From the NCBI GenBank assembly GCA_002102555.1, contig MCFL01000016.1, positions 62,001-126,000 on the forward strand: 64,000 nt of DNA. Direction: 5' to 3'. Shown in pieces: positions 56,221 to 64,000 of the stretch (position 1 is the first letter of the stretch; each line of letters starts with the position of its first letter). The notes under the pieces were generated by a model. It made no database searches, was not told where the DNA came from, and saw only the letters and a program-made list of their open reading frames with translations. Made by a program: the position numbers and the translations under genes. The DNA is from Catenaria anguillulae PL171. Lineage: Eukaryota; Blastocladiomycota; Blastocladiomycetes; Blastocladiales; Catenariaceae.

Positions 56221-57162
56221 GGCGGCGATTGGGGGATTGCATGTGGGCGCTGTGGGCTTTGGGCTTGGCTCTGGCAGAGAGCAAATGGCAAACGCATGGC
56301 GACAATGCAAACAGCCAACACAGGGCTTGCAATCAAATGACATTCGTGGCTGCCTTTGATCAATGATGCACCTGATCACTGCACTCTGATCAGTGCCCAT
56401 GCGGACCCGGTTTTGGTTTGCGGTTTGCACAGCAATCCCACAGTGATTGACCGCCAGAAGAGTGAGCTTTTGGTCATGTTGCTCTCACGGGTCCATCCAT
56501 CATCCACACATCCATGGCGCGGCCATGCCTACCGTGATATCCATTAAATGTCCCGGCAGCTTCAATGCTTCATGAGTGCCCTCACCCCCCTCGGTCTGCC
56601 CCGTCCTCACCTTCTTTCAGTTGGGGCAAGTACATCTCTGGAAATGGAAGTGGCCTGGCCGCTGTCTCACGACCGCGTTTCGAATCAGTTGCACCATAAT
56701 GACTGAATCTGGGGGTTCAAGACCGTAAGCGTCATGATTCGAAACATGCGATGCGAACATGGAAAGCAATGAGAGCCCATGCTTTTGCTCTCAGGGATTC
56801 GTCCGATTCAAGCGTGGCCGCCATTCTCTGACGTCTGACCGACCTGTGTCGTGTCCGTTGGAGTCTGGCTGCTGGCAAACAGGAGCCATTTTGGAATTTC
56901 GAAACCATGAAGCCAACACTTCAAAACGCTGTCACCACCCCTCTCGTCAGACTCGGATCACATTCTCAAGCTCTCAAGCGCCGTGTCCGAATTGCGACCG
57001 ACTTCTCTTCTCATCCGACATACTCATTCACTCACGCTCGTTTTCTTTGATTCCCGCTGCTGGCCAGCCTTACTTCCTATCCTTGTCGCCTGGCCAACTT
57101 GACTCACCACTGTACAACTGATCCCCATCCTGCCACCATTCATTCATCCACTCAAACCAACC
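56221..57162. other. divergent promoter region, CCH1 / secreted protein
   Basis: About 940 bp. It contains a 10-bp inverted repeat, TTTCGAATCA (56678) and TGATTCGAAA (56735), separated by 47 bp, and C/T-rich tracts before 57163. No tRNA fold could be formed around the GGTTCAAGACC at 56714. Confidence 0.4.
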
Positions 57163-58555
57163 ATGATTCGCCGCCTCTCACTCATCGCCATCCTGCTGCT
57201 GGCAGCACTCTCCCCATTCCCTTCGCACTCTTCCCCAGTTCCTTTCCTTCCCAACCAACCAATTCAAACCGTCCACCGTCAAGCTCTGCCCGCGAGCCGT
57301 CTCGCTCGGCGCCATGATCACGATTCCGCGAGCAGCATTCAAGCTCTTGCCATTGACGATGCTCAGGAAGCAGAAGAAATCGATCCCGAGGAGCTCCCTC
57401 CGTTCAAGGTCAAGCTCTTGAAGAAGCGCCAGGCCGACGATGACGAGAACGAGATTGATCCTGAGGAGCTGCCGCCCTTCCGCCGTCGCTTGGCCCGTCG
57501 TGGAGGAGCACCTGCCCAAGCTCAACCAAAGCCCCAGCCGCAACCTGCTCAACCTCAACAGCCAGCGCCGCCAGCAACAAGGGCAATGACGACGACGATG
57601 ACGAACAAGCTCGACCACCCGCTGCCGCCTCGTCAACCACAAGCACCACATCCACAAGTGCCAGTACCAGTGCCAGTACCAGTGCCAGTACCAGTGCCAC
57701 GACTTCAACGTCTGCGGGAACGACAACTACTTCACCTCGACCTCAACGACCTCAACCTCAACGGCCAATTCGCAGACTCCACCGCCGGCCCAGCAAACGC
57801 CGCCGCCCAAGAAAAACAACAACAAGAACAACAAGAAGCAACAGCCGCCTGCCGCCACGTCGTCTGCACCGCCCAACACGGCCGCTCCCACACAGCCGGC
57901 GGCGGACGCACAACCAACGCAGCCGCCTGCCAACAACAAGAACAACAAGAACCGTGGCAATGCAAACAAAACCAAGAATCAGGGCGGCGCCGCTTCCACC
58001 ACCACGTCAACGACAACCACCTCATCGACAACCACGTCCACGACCAGTGGCGCCGGTGCCCAACCCACGCGTCCACCACAACGCGGCAATCAAGGTCGAG
58101 GCCAAGGCCAAGGTCGCGGCGGCAACGATTCCGACGATGACCGATGACAACAACAACAACAACAACAACGGTGGCAATCGCCGCCAACGTGCAACGCGCA
58201 CCTCATCAAGCACAACGACCACGGGCACGGGGGCGCGGCCACGAGCACCAGTTCTGGAAATGGCGCGGCTCAACCCACGCGTCCGCCGCGTGCTGACCGC
58301 GGGCGGAACAACAACCAGGCTCAGCATCCGCCGCCGGCAAGCCAAACGACGTCGGCATCGACCACGAGTACGACAAGCGCCAGCACAAGCGCCAGCACAA
58401 GCGCCAGCACAAGCGCCAGCACAAGCGCCAGCACAAACGCGAGCACAAGCACGACTTCACCCGCGGCAACGAGCACGCGCGCAAACAACGGAAACAAGAA
58501 TCGGCCGGCAAAGACGGTGGTTGTCGTGCGAATGAATCGAAACCGTGACGATTGA
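57163..58555 (+). CDS. secreted low-complexity protein with dibasic-flanked repeats
   Basis: Signal peptide MIRRLSLIAILLLAALSPFP (residues 1-24). Residues 73-81 and 98-106 are both IDPEELPPF, bounded by LARR (47-50), KKR (87-89) and RRRLARR (107-113), which resemble kexin sites. A Pro/Gln-rich stretch follows, then, after a one-base loss near 57580, an acidic run and long Ser/Thr/Ala and Asn/Gly repeats encoded by minisatellites, ending KTVVVVRMNRNRDD at 58553-58555. The downstream frame is uncertain because of the repeats. It may be a cell-wall or mucin-like precursor with a processed pro-region. No family recognised. Confidence 0.5.
57657..57698 (+). repeat. 12-bp minisatellite AGTGCCAGTACC (x3.5)
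   Basis: Tandem 12-mer within the secreted protein gene. In the favoured frame it encodes alternating Ser/Thr/Ala. Confidence 0.9.
58146..58169 (+). repeat. (CAA)n microsatellite
   Basis: Eight CAA/ACA triplets in the secreted-protein gene, encoding an Asn or Gln run depending on frame. Confidence 0.85.
58373..58436 (+). repeat. 12-bp minisatellite ACAAGCGCCAGC (x5.3)
   Basis: Perfect tandem 12-mers encoding TSAS repeats in the favoured frame. Related in sense to the repeat at 57657 but different in codons. Confidence 0.9.
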
Positions 58556-59049: not shown

Positions 59050-62000
59050 ATGAACCCGACTTCTATTATCTTGCTCGCGCTGATCGTTGCATGTGCGATT
59101 GGTTTCGCGGCCGCCAGTACTACAACTGTCCGCGTTTTCGTGCCAGCTGCAGGTATATAGTGATTTTGCGGCTTGTCGCACATGCAGGACCAACGGTATT
59201 AACCCTGACCGTTGGCAAAATGTGACAGCGTTTGGCAAAGACCCATGGGCGTCAACGGCACTTCTTCGTCAGGCATTTACGGCCCGAACTGGCATCGCAA
59301 TTGAGTTTGTTCCTTTGGTACGCACATCTGCACGTCACTTTCTGGCACTTCTCGTCTCATGTTCAAAGCAACTAACTGACCAGGGCTGCTGTTTAGGGCG
59401 CCGTCTCCACAACTTGTGCGTATCTTGCCGTTGTGGCTCATGGCGACAGCGGCCGGGTCGGAATCGTGTCATTCACTCTCAGCGCCGCGATGACTAGATG
59501 TATCATCAGCCATTCAAACGCTGCTGGCGACTCAGAGCTCGTACATTGATGTGATTCTCATGGATGGTATGCCACACTCCCCATAACAAGTACCCTCTGG
59601 GATCATCAATTGACAACTGCCGTGCTTATCCGATTCGGCATGTAGTGGTGTGGGTCGGTATGTCGGCTATTCCGTGCCGTCAAGAGAAGTGTGCGTCTAG
59701 AGGGGTTGCCTGACCATCGACTGGGCTCTGGTAAGGAAATTATGGCGACCATCTCCTCCCATTGGATGATGATAGCGGAATAGCTGCAGCTTTGCAGCCC
59801 CACAACCCACAGAACATCGCTGCAGGCGTGTATCACAACAAACTGTACGTCGTACGCGTTCCCTGTGAAGGAAAGTGTTGTCGTTGCCGTGACTGGCTGA
59901 TGGTATAACAGGCGGACGTGTACAGAGTTGCCATTCCACAACGAGCAGATTGTATGATGCAAGCGTTATTTTGCACTCGAGAACGGTTCAGAGGACCGCC
60001 AATTCTCAATCGTTCCTGATTGTCCCACTAGACGGCGTGCTGTATTCACGAATGGACATGCTCAATCGCTCCGGATTCACCAATCCTCCCACGACGGTAC
60101 GCACATCTGCACTTTCGCACTCATTAGCATTCACACTTAAATTCATTCTTCCGCTTGTCGCTACGATATCATCATAGTGGGACAAATGGAATCCATGATC
60201 TCAGCAATTCTGCCAGGCGTCCGCCAATCCAAACCTACGTTCCTCGGCATCTCCAACCACATCAACCCAGAAGAAGGCTTCACGTGCAACATTCTCGAAT
60301 GGCTCGCGTCTGAATCTGCAGGCACCGTGCTCGAACCCGACGGCACATTGTCGTCATTCGACCTATCGTCGCCCATTGGTCAGCGTGTGCTCAACGTTGC
60401 ACATCGCTGGCGCCGCTGGAACCAGAACGGATGGCTGCAAGTCGGCATGAGCCAAGCCGCTACCGCAAACCAGTGGGTCAAGGGCAACACGCTGTTCTTG
60501 CGGCACTGGCCGTATGTGAGTTCGACTACCAGGGACGCAAATGTGACGTGGCCGTGGCGCATGAGCATGTTGCCGGGCAATGTGGCGACCTTGGGCGGGT
60601 GGATGTGGGGCGTGAGCAAGTATTCCACGCAGCAAGTCGCGGCAAAGAAGGTCTTGGAGCTGTTTGCTGGGATCGAGTGGCAGAAGGTCAGAGCGGTTGC
60701 TGAGGGGAATGCACCAACGATTACGGCGCTGTACAACGGTACGAACAGACAACCACCGCTTTCTTTGGATCTTGCGTGGCCAGCGTGGTGCTGATATTTT
60801 CCGGCCCACAGACTCTGATGTGTGTGCGGTTCTGCCGATTTGTGACCTGGCTCCCCGCTTTAAGGTACGTTTGCCAAGAATATGACTCTTGGTGCAATTG
60901 CTTTTTCGTTTGCCCACACGCTACACTCCACCTGTTCAGGTCGTTCGCCGCCCGTCAAGTGCTGCTGGAATGCAGTACACGCAAGTCTCAGCCGCTATCT
61001 ACAATCACTTCTTTGACATTGTCCGCGGCTATGCCGGATCCATTGCTGCTACCCTTGACGGCATGAACCGAGATATCGCTCGAATCTTAAGCATTGACGT
61101 GCTTGGGCGGCCGACAAATGTTCAATTGCATAATTTTTCCGTTGTTGCATTTGGAATCGTGGCCATCATCATGGCCCTAGCATTGATGGCATCGCTCGCC
61201 TTGTTTGCTGTCACCCGCACTACGTCGGTTGTTGGGAACCTTGGCCTGCCGAGCTTCTTGGCTCCATCAACCATCGGTCTGATTATGCAGCTGACACTCA
61301 TCATTACGACGGCCGGTGTGCCCAACTCGGCAACTTGCTATGCGCGGTATTGGATCCACGGAATCGGATACACACTGGCCATCATGTCCGTTGCGATGCG
61401 CAACCATCACATTTGGTCCACTTCTCGTACGCATGCACTTTTCTGTATTCGAAATCACCCAAACCTACTTCATTTCTGACTCGGCTGCACACATTTTGTA
61501 GTCAATCCATTCCTCAAGAAGCGCAACCCGTCGTCGCGAGTCGTCTTGACCACCGTTGTCGCTCCGCTCGTCGTGACTTTTGCCATTCTCATTGGATTCA
61601 CTGCCTCGGGTGCCATTGACGCCAACGACATCAAGCTATCGAAATCGCGCTACTATGAATGCAAGTCGCTTGATCCCAATATCGACTCGGCAGCGCACAT
61701 TGTCTGGTACATTTGGCTTGGCGTGCAAATGCTGACCGCTCTGTGGACTGGCCTCAAGGCATCTAAGCTGGCCACGGCACCACAAGAGCCCAAAGCCACG
61801 ATGATTTGTCTTGCTAATGCAGCCATGCTCGCCATTGTGATATTGCCCTTTATCGACCTTGGATTGGTCGACCAGTCAACCAGCTACATCTTGCGCTCCA
61901 TCCTGATCGAGGTACCAATTGCGACCTTCATCTTGGTCTTTTTGGCTCCTCGCTTGTTGCTCGCTTGGCAACACTGGCGACATCCTACCTCTCTTGGTGC

Positions 62001-62652
62001 CGCGAGCGAGCAACACTTTGCTCAAGCAGATATGAGCGCCGGATTGGAAACCATGCACCTGTCATCGTCCACGCCACATTACAACATTCCAAACCCAAAT
62101 GCAGTGTCCCACACCGCTGTCGCTACACCGGCTCCAACACATGGTGTGTCGTCACCAATCAAGCCTGCCGCAGCTTCTAGGGCCGTGAATGTACATGCGA
62201 TTGCACAAGCGAGCCGGTTCGCGGCCCGCAACGGGATTGGCTACGATGGCCTTGTTTCCCTTCGTTCTTTTTGTCACACTAGTCATTTCGTGCCGCGGCT
62301 ACTGGGCTTTATGCGGCCATGGAAGCTAATGCGCTTGTACCTGCTGCAATCCGAGGGATTGCTTGTGCTTCACGACCTGTCCAAGCCCGTGCGTTGACCT
62401 TCTTCCCTACTATCGCTGAAGGGACGTCACTAACGAACCGCGCTTTACTTGTGCCGGTATCTTCAGCTGTCAGCCATACATGGGGTAGCGGTCCCAGTCG
62501 ACCTTGTCGATCGAGTACGACCGCACTCACAGACAGACAATCAGTTTGTCATATTGCTCAAGGACGGACTCACCTGTGAGGTCATGGTCGCAAGCAGTGA
62601 CGAAAGCCAGCGTTGGGTCGCTGCAATAGCAGGCGCTGTTTCGGGAAAGTGA
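59050..62652 (+). CDS. receptor: solute-binding domain + class-C 7TM + PH domain
   Basis: Eleven exons: 59050-59152, 59229-59317, 59397-59566, 59646-59657 (12 nt), 59784-59864, 60032-60096, 60178-60738, 60812-60864, 60940-61426, 61502-62388, 62467-62652; about 898 aa. Signal peptide MNPTSIILLALIVACAIGFA. Residues ~25-375 resemble bacterial ABC type-1 extracellular solute-binding proteins: KLYVVRVPYGVLYSRMDMLN, RSGFTNPPTTW, GFTCNILEWLAS, MLPGNVATLGGWMWGVSKYS. Seven helices follow, from VVAFGIVAIIMALALMASLA to IATFILVFLAPRLLL; CYARYWIHGIGYTLAIMSVA matches the TM3 of GABA-B-like class-C receptors, with a partner Cys in YYECKS. The C-terminus is a PH domain (RPWKLMRLYLLQSEGLLVLH to ESQRWVAAIAGAV). 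Two frame breaks (about 59495 and 60183). Presumed surface nutrient or amino-acid/sugar sensor coupled to G proteins. Confidence 0.8.
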
Positions 62653-63335
62653 TTTGGGATCAATGAACTTGAGGAATGTTTGCATATAGACTTTGTTCCT
62701 GCGTTGAGTGGTATGTACGGTATACACTCGATGTGGGAGTAACTGAGAATGGCGGGGCATTATGCAGGGCTGGCTAGATCCGTCTTTACTTTGCCATGGG
62801 TGTCAATGGCGGAGTGTTATTCTGTCAAGGATTGCCCATTGGTATCCATTGTGCATTGAAATTGAGTAGAACAACACTGTGATCTTTAAACCGGACGGCT
62901 GGAATCGTCATGTTGCGACGACCGATCGATAAACAACTCGTGCTTGCACGAGTTGGGGAATTTGAAGCAGACGCGTCAATGCCTGATCAAGACCGACGGC
63001 GAGGCTCGCAAAAAAAGGGACGTAATCATCCGCCTTGGTCCCACGCCATTCATCATGCGGAAGAATGTACACATCGATTGGAGCAAGAGAGTATATGTAT
63101 GCAACTTACGCAGCAACACTCGGCACAAGTATCACATTGCCTCGCCGTCCCAGTCAACAAATGATCCAGGCTTCTAGTAGATTGTGCCAGGGGCATCGGC
63201 ACATCGCCAGCAGTCGCCTTCTTCCCGTGCGGTCCGGCTGCCTCGGATGCTTTGTGCGGACAAGCCCATCTTTTAACAGATACCTGACTCCCAGTATTCA
63301 CTTTTGTTTGGCCGGCGTTTGCCCCCCGTCGACGC
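62653..63335. other. intergenic region between the tandem receptors
   Basis: About 680 bp. A 77-codon ORF (62944-63177) has no recognisable motif. It contains the promoter of receptor 2. Otherwise nothing seen. Confidence 0.4.
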
Positions 63336-64000
63336 ATGTAGCAACGTTGCTGTTTACGATCACGATCCTTCTGAGCGTCCTACATTCTGTTGCTGCCAAT
63401 AACCCGATCGTGCGCATCTTGGTTCCCGCCTCCGGTTCGTCACATTCATTCTCCTCTGTGTGTGATACATACCGTCTGAGCCATTTGATTGCTGCCTATT
63501 ACCGCCAAGGTTGTCACTGACAGTATCGCTCAATCTTAGCATTTGGAAAAGATCAATGGGCATCAACCGCGTCCCTTCGACAGTCGTTTACGGCGCAAAC
63601 GGGGATCACGATTGAGTTTGTTCCCTTGGTACGTCCCTCGACATTTCTCACATGCCTCAAAGTATGCCATGTAATTGATTGTCATTTGTCTTCAGGGAAC
63701 CTCATCTTCCGTTTGTACGCTTGATTCGTCTCCTCTGACGAGATTCAGACAGCAGCGAACCGACATGATGGACAATTCAGATGTTTCGAGCGCAATCAAG
63801 ACTGTGTTGGCCGCCGAGAGCTCATACATTGATGTGATTCTCATGGATGGTATGTGCTTTCTCACCATCATGTGTTGATTTGAACTGGGAATGTGTCTCA
63901 CCGTCATACATGTATCCTGAGCAGTGGTCTGGATTGGTACGTTCTTTTGATTTCCATTGTCACTGATGGCGTGAGAGCGTCACGATGGCAACTATGGTGT
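63336..64000 (+). CDS. receptor 2, tandem paralogue of receptor 1 (3' truncated by window)
   Basis: Visible exons 63336-63434, 63540-63628, 63696-63849 and 63925-63936 (12 nt), then the window ends in the following intron or exon. The exon plan and phases equal those of receptor 1: signal-like ATLLFTITILLSVLHSVAA, IVRILVPAS, then FGKDQWASTASLRQSFTAQT, GITIEFVPL, then SSAIKTVLAAESSYIDVILM, spliced to the 12-nt micro-exon giving DVVWI. The start ATG at 63336 is out of frame by one base with the signal peptide (ATGTAG); restoring a G gives MVATLLF. Only the start of the solute-binding domain is in the window; a 7TM core is expected downstream. Confidence 0.75.

Follow-up and report, generated by a model that had tools for sequence, protein, structure and literature searches.

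What does a receptor sense when a bacterial-type solute-binding domain stands ahead of a class-C seven-helix core? The question is raised by positions 59050-62652 of a 64,000-nucleotide stretch of DNA (the window; C68:62001-126000, contig MCFL01000016.1) from the 41.07 Mb, 457-contig genome of Catenaria anguillulae PL171, a blastocladiomycete water fungus and nematode parasite. An initial annotation read the gene there, receptor 1, as a fusion of a solute-binding protein (SBP) domain, a class-C seven-transmembrane (7TM) core and a pleckstrin homology (PH) domain, and that fusion is present in the sequence, the gene models and the Pfam scan. By protein search, receptor 1 is BCR44DRAFT_1512352 (P0001, public model of 857 aa), and its neighbour, copy 2, is BCR44DRAFT_1460279 (P0002, public model of 810 aa), whose UniRef name is already 'PH domain-containing'. 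Both run from a signal peptide through an ATP-binding cassette (ABC)-type sugar-binding domain and a class-C 7TM core to a PH domain, and this SBP-7TM-PH architecture is secure. We consider it moderately probable that they are class-C G-protein-coupled receptors (GPCRs) whose ligands are small sugars outside the cell, in all probability alpha-linked disaccharides like trehalose or maltose, with a PH tail that would bind the membrane or a partner.

In receptor 1, the signal peptide (judged by eye) starts at 59050, the sugar-binding domain ends near 61100, the membrane helices occupy approximately 61130-61960 and the PH region covers 62239-62649. The second copy had been placed about 0.7 kb downstream. 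Its position holds, from approximately 63341, but no start codon was seen beside its signal peptide. The Pfam scan suggested with that annotation recovers each part of the architecture: SBP_bac_8 (57.3 bits, 2.8e-15), SBP_bac_1 (51.6 bits, 1.8e-13; cut-off 26 bits) and 7tm_3 (60.3 bits, 3e-16; cut-off 33.5 bits) are over cut-off in P0002, and the copy 2 tail scanned alone passes for PH. In P0001, 7tm_3 is likewise over cut-off (56.4 bits, 4.6e-15), and SBP_bac_1, at 25.7 bits, is just under.

The proposal of a GABA-B-like core is borne out. The top match of the 7TM region of a relative from Blastocladiella emersonii (P0090), searched alone, is GABA-B2 (8.4e-22), and each of the best 60 of its 79 matches is a GABA-B receptor, an mGlu receptor or a construct of one of these. 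The cysteines of the third transmembrane helix (TM3) and the second extracellular loop (ECL2) are invariant in all five aligned copies. The cysteine-rich NCD3G domain gave no Pfam match at E<=1; this domain is absent from GABA-B receptors as well. GABA-B-type receptors carry a basic motif at the end of TM3, and a point against the assignment is that this end is degenerate in receptor 1 and copy 2, where it reads MRNHHIW. The AlphaFold model of copy 2, which lacks the N-terminal part, has a mean predicted local distance difference test score (pLDDT) of 87.6. It places membrane helices at 366-391, 403-423, 430-461, 474-498, 521-550, 557-581 and 587-622, and a two-stranded ECL2 hairpin (503-516) connects TM4 to TM5. 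In the P0090 model the SBP domain is good, and confidence is low (blocks of 44-76) for the seven membrane helices.

One possibility would be that separate genes for the SBP and the 7TM core lie side by side and are joined only by gene prediction. Introns do interrupt the gene, and public SBP-only Catenaria models exist (P0003 and P0004, which may be partial). However, the exon at 60940-61426 passes from the SBP domain to TM3 in one frame; two paralogous loci hold SBP and transmembrane helices in a single open frame (L011:3427-4659, SBP_bac_8 45.5 bits; L002:1084-3165, 26.7 bits against a cut-off of 27); and the relatives in two other genera are single predicted proteins. Because there are open paralogs, single-frame fusions in two paralogs, and relatives in Blastocladiella and Allomyces, the fusion is real. 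These single frames and relatives lead us to reject two adjacent genes, which we consider extremely improbable.

The ectodomain had been described as resembling sugar or peptide ABC-type binding proteins rather than the animal ANF type. The bacterial ABC type and the sugar part of this description stand, the sugars being of the trehalose/maltose kind. The peptide part falls: no peptide-binding SBP is among the matches listed, and the leading named ones bind sugars. ANF_receptor gave no Pfam match at E<=1 in P0001 or P0002, where SBP_bac_1/8 takes its place. By sequence, the best PDB matches of copy 2 are, in order, the Thermus alpha-glycoside-binding protein (E to 1.1e-43), MalE3 (6DTQ), SmoF (in its structure titles a binder of sulfoquinovosyl sugars) and TMBP (1EU8). 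A profile of five paralogs matches the Thermus protein (1e-58, profile positions 91-434) and GABA-B2 (3.4e-12, 464-736) over separate stretches. Searching with the ectodomain alone, under a length limit that excludes full receptors, gave 85 proteins, three from Catenaria and the others bacterial where an organism is named; many of the bacterial relatives bear the name trehalose/maltose transport system substrate-binding protein. Once the related fungal receptors are set aside, bacterial proteins have the nearest ectodomains, with 36-38% identity at best. The SBP fold is modelled at pLDDT >90 over most of the domain in both copy 2 and P0090, and a fold search with the P0090 model places the Thermus protein first among the best 50 of 1341 matches. 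Because these best 50 are all solute-binding chains, that search is uninformative on the 7TM core and the tail. The Thermus structure titles name complexes with trehalose, maltose and glucose, and the mutants D118A, W287A/F, R356A and R49A. Structures 6J9W (Thermus), 6DTQ and 1EU8 are grouped with bound maltose or trehalose in a passage of a 2025 paper (PMC12096829).

The next question is whether the sugar pocket has been kept. Counted along the printed alignment, Thermus D70, D118, E230, W248, W287 and R356 correspond to D103, D151, E268, W286, W322 and R389 of P0090. In a joint alignment of 14 fungal and 24 bacterial sequences, all six are kept in the bacterial rows, except for one partial row without the arginine column, and in P0090 and the Catenaria copies c3, c4, C68:408, C436:147 and C55; C436:163 and C79 keep five. 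Across the nine Catenaria copies of the PH group, W248, W287 and R356 are present in 9/9, D70 and D118 in 8/9 each and E230 in 7/9. Passages of PMC7949145 state that mycobacterial LpqY no longer bound trehalose once Glu241, Trp259 or Arg404 had been changed to alanine. Equal 18-residue spacing suggests that LpqY Glu241 and Trp259 are the counterparts of P0090 E268 and W286. With the pocket residues mostly kept and the glutamate lost from the window pair, the ligand of the family is best guessed to be a trehalose- or maltose-like disaccharide, a guess that is less sure for the window pair.

Three observations weigh against this assignment. Receptor 1 and copy 2 (c1 and c2) have five of the six pocket residues, the glutamate being replaced by Gln in c1 and Ser in c2; the Allomyces macrogynus relative (P0094) has two of six; and Thermus R49 is replaced by Val in copy 2. 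Because of the glutamate replacement, c1 and c2 may bind another ligand or none. The same architecture could thus serve, in this pair, a different glycoside, a sulfosugar or a cell-wall fragment. This proposal draws on the lost glutamate, on a subgroup at C68:446-485 kb that has lost two other pocket residues in 3/3 models, and on the rank of SmoF above 1EU8 among the copy 2 matches. The pair nonetheless keeps the remaining five tested residues, and the Thermus disaccharide binder is ahead by a wide margin, leaving a different ligand class unlikely on balance. In the subgroup itself (C68:446000-486000), the equivalents of D118 and W287 are missing and four pocket residues are kept in all three SBP-7TM models. 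A PH tail was not recognised in these models, which are poor at that end.

The tail is the third element of the architecture. Scanned alone against a Pfam PH cut-off of 25.1 bits, the copy 2 tail scores 28.0 bits, as compared to 22.6 bits within the whole protein. Receptor 1 is under the cut-off both as whole P0001 (E 0.069) and as its own spliced tail (19.2 bits). Three other Catenaria tails reach 21.8, 18.1 and 13.6 bits and the Blastocladiella tail 12.6 bits (E 0.2). A profile of eight PH regions (six Catenaria, one Blastocladiella, one Allomyces) matches 31 distinct PDB sequences at E<=10, all 31 of which we take to be proteins known for PH domains. The copy 2 model contains seven strands (698-787) and a C-terminal helix (791-809), at pLDDT 77-94 in blocks across 701-810. 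The P0090 tail is likewise modelled with strands and a C-terminal helix, at pLDDT 73-92 over 751-820 and 61-89 over 841-880. The P0090 and P0094 tails align with the PH region, yet Pfam PH is absent from both whole proteins at E<=1.

On the other side, only one of the eight tails passes the Pfam cut-off alone, the P0005 and Allomyces tails scanned alone have no Pfam PH match, and of the 31 PDB matches only three have E <0.001, the best, Myosin X, adding two weak stretches. Because Pfam PH is weak or absent outside Catenaria, tail conservation there is argued from the alignment and the P0090 model. Many PH folds bind proteins. Together with the Pfam scores (one pass in eight, no match in two of eight), this leaves room for a tail that is a protein-protein module of PH fold and no lipid role, or whose fold has been lost in some members, an alternative that we regard as possible though the less probable one. 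The strands and helix of the copy 2 and P0090 models speak for an intact fold. Neither these models nor the copy 2 rescan, which strengthens the PH fold, bears on lipid binding.

Hand reading and spliced alignment to copy 2 count 12-13 exons in receptor 1, in place of the eleven first proposed, separated by introns of 73-82 nucleotides with GT..AG borders. In the spliced alignment, a 26-nucleotide exon (59926-59951) holds part of the conserved VAIPQRADYG motif and restores it. The same alignment contains one reading-frame break in receptor 1 as assembled, near 60185, which counts against an intact gene. The public model P0001 is open only by taking one exon, at 60032, in another frame, and implies an intron after GAVSTT. 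Because of this single break, receptor 1 may be damaged or mis-sequenced. A reading with two frame breaks and an exon at 59992-60096 was ruled out by the spliced alignment, with its 26-nucleotide exon and one break. A scripted exon at 59229-59390 and a last 'exon' beyond the stop codon are artefacts, as judged from the public protein and the stop codon. The pair 59397-59415/59498-59566 is split as the public protein implies, since leaving it unsplit changes the frame; spliced alignment to copy 2 put the border of the second exon elsewhere than the public protein does.

The break near 60185, and the shifted exon of the public model, which loses a pocket residue, speak for a decaying pseudogene beside functional paralogs such as copy 2. 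This outcome we take seriously while doubting it: neither the splice sites nor the frames beyond the break are damaged, one erroneous base in the assembly would produce the same picture, and a second haplotype of the receptor 1 stretch was not found, C339 starting only at window position 62849. Copy 2, its second haplotype C339 and the copy at C436:147 kb show no frame break when aligned over almost their full length, and for this reason the SBP-7TM fusion is independent of receptor 1. As the query was copy 2 itself, the alignment shows only open frames for that copy. The remainder of copy 2 runs past the window to approximately C68:128897.

How widespread is the architecture? Receptor 1 alone as a protein query found two proteins, and an alignment as query reached two other genera. 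The 48 proteins found in this way comprise five Catenaria receptors, P0090, P0094 (AMAG_14408) and 41 others, 40 of which have SBP domains or a substrate-binding name (P0121 has neither). The search across fungi proposed at the outset thus yielded SBP-7TM relatives in Blastocladiella and Allomyces, with tails alignable to the PH region, and the SBP-7TM fusion is present in three genera. A tree of 47 SBP domains places all 14 from fungi on one side of a branch with support of 100/100. This fits a single acquisition of the SBP before the genera split. The direction of transfer is our inference, because the tree was rooted at its midpoint and several long branches were flagged.

The suspected tandem array extends past the window, with four copies in C68:121.0-147.0 kb (~26 kb). 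Matches to copy 2 and 7tm_3 indicate about 15 non-allelic SBP-7TM loci in the genome, 11 of them on C68, with allele calls made by eye except for C339. This 17.3 kb contig seems to represent the array, from window position 62849 onward, in a second haplotype, and is 94% identical over window positions 62849-64000.

Across the genome, 150 exon-level 7tm_3 matches were scored, which fall into 121 clusters, haplotype copies included. At E<=1, 15/121 clusters have a Pfam PH match up to 2 kb downstream on their own strand, and 0/121 have one up to 2 kb upstream on either strand. Four of the 15 are over the Pfam cut-off (C2:463638, C434, C1:723984 and C146 with neighbours). The PH profile, which was used at a loose threshold and covered 40 of the 121 clusters, gave 10 sense matches in nine clusters and no antisense match at E <0.5, and 14 sense against one antisense at E <1. 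By either the profile or Pfam proximity, 11/40 clusters have a PH match. The tail seems to recur with other ectodomains, as judged from weak PH matches at two loci. At L007 (C101:295605-299339), a single open frame encodes OpuAC (glycine-betaine type), a further bacterial binding domain on this receptor core, together with 7tm_3, and a weak PH match follows downstream. At L006 (C1:293454-297242), one open frame encodes an ANF_receptor-type domain, and an overlapping one encodes 7tm_3 and, at the C-terminus, a weak PH match (E 0.24). An unusual ectodomain was also seen at L001 (C403:531838-535599), where weak EGF-like and Chlamydia-PMP-type repeat matches precede 7tm_3 in one open frame.

The fusion itself is not new. 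In Allomyces macrogynus, 78 Glutamate-family GPCRs include eight with SBP_bac_1 and six with OpuAC N-termini (Krishnan et al. 2012, PMC3251606), so that in this blastocladiomycete, too, a bacterial SBP precedes the 7tm_3 core. The main text of that report does not use the terms pleckstrin, PF00169, C-terminal or tandem, and its passages on these receptors make no sugar-family assignment. Oomycete GPCR-bigrams also join a 7TM receptor to a C-terminal signalling domain, often a lipid-linked one, but the domains there are different (PIPK, INPP, TKL and more), and the main text of the report on them (PMC5784254) never uses 'PH domain', 'class C' or 'glutamate'. No paper was found that describes the PH tail or assigns the ectodomain to trehalose/maltose binders, although de Mendoza et al. 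2014 may mention PH tails. New here are the tail, flagged in a database name and in none of the papers found, a sharper ligand class and the array. The closest solved 7TM cores, those of the GABA-B subunits, also sit beneath a two-lobed binding domain and have the TM3-ECL2 cysteine pair. In contrast, the Catenaria ectodomain is SBP_bac_1/8 (Pfam clan PBP) and not ANF_receptor, and a PH tail is added. The Thermus protein (6J9W), TMBP (1EU8) and MalE3 (6DTQ) share the ectodomain fold and most pocket residues and have no membrane receptor core, being soluble partners of ABC importers.

If these are disaccharide receptors, signalling would likely involve: closure of the two-lobed SBP domain on the sugar; movement of the short linker above TM1, switching the GABA-B-like seven-helix core; and action of that core, possibly as a dimer, on fungal heterotrimeric G proteins. 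The genome contains 62 match rows for G-alpha, the weak ones of which may be other GTPases. The PH tail would then bind the inner membrane leaflet or a partner, with phosphoinositides and G-beta-gamma as candidates, and so place or gate the receptor, perhaps for nutrient sensing. Tentatively, an ancestor of the Blastocladiomycota might have acquired a trehalose/maltose-binding protein from bacteria and coupled it to a GABA-B-like core and PH tail, founding a family of G-protein-coupled disaccharide receptors, the tail now occurring in a sizeable share of a greatly enlarged class-C repertoire with interchangeable binding domains. Were this so, one chain would read both ligand and membrane-lipid state. 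The fusion itself suggests that binding proteins from a two-lobed family unlike that of animals can drive a class-C 7TM core, a point relevant to how flytrap closure reaches the helices. It also provides concrete candidate ligands for an orphan fungal receptor family, and a natural design for sugar-sensing GPCR biosensors made from bacterial binding proteins.

Table 1. Features of receptor 1 and the start of copy 2, in window coordinates.
Feature	Position	Strand	Basis
Exon 1: start codon, signal peptide, first SBP strand	59050..59152	+	Spliced reading; same N-terminus in P0001
SBP exons 59229-59317, 59397-59415, 59498-59566, 59646-59657, 59736-59844, 59926-59951, 60032-60096	59229..60096	+	Hand reading, public protein, spliced alignment, GT..AG
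Large SBP exon, frame break near 60185	60178..60738	+	Spliced and joint alignments
Pocket residues: LFLRHWP 60492-60512, LGGW 60591-60602	within 60178..60738	+	
GMSQ 60444-60455: conserved Glu replaced by Gln in receptor 1	within 60178..60738	+	
Short exon near SBP C-terminal end	60812..60864	+	Hand reading, spliced alignment
SBP C-terminus (RRPSSAAG 60946-60969) joined to TM1-TM3 in one frame	60940..61426	+	
TM3 Cys in SATCYARYW	61327-61353, within exon 60940..61426	+	
TM4-TM7, cytoplasmic linker, first PH half (62239-62388)	61502..62388	+	Reading and Pfam
ECL2 Cys (RYYECKS 61648-61668); FLAPR motif from 61939	within 61502..62388		
Second PH half (QRWVAAI 62608-62628) and stop codon	62467..62652	+	Reading, Pfam, tail profile
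Copy 2 (P0002) exons 63341-63434, 63540-63628, 63696-63849, 63925-63936	63341..64000	+	Public protein, spliced alignment

Upstream of receptor 1, window positions 57103-58555 hold overlapping frames with repeats rich in Ser, Thr, Ala, Gln and Asn, possibly from one secreted low-complexity protein.

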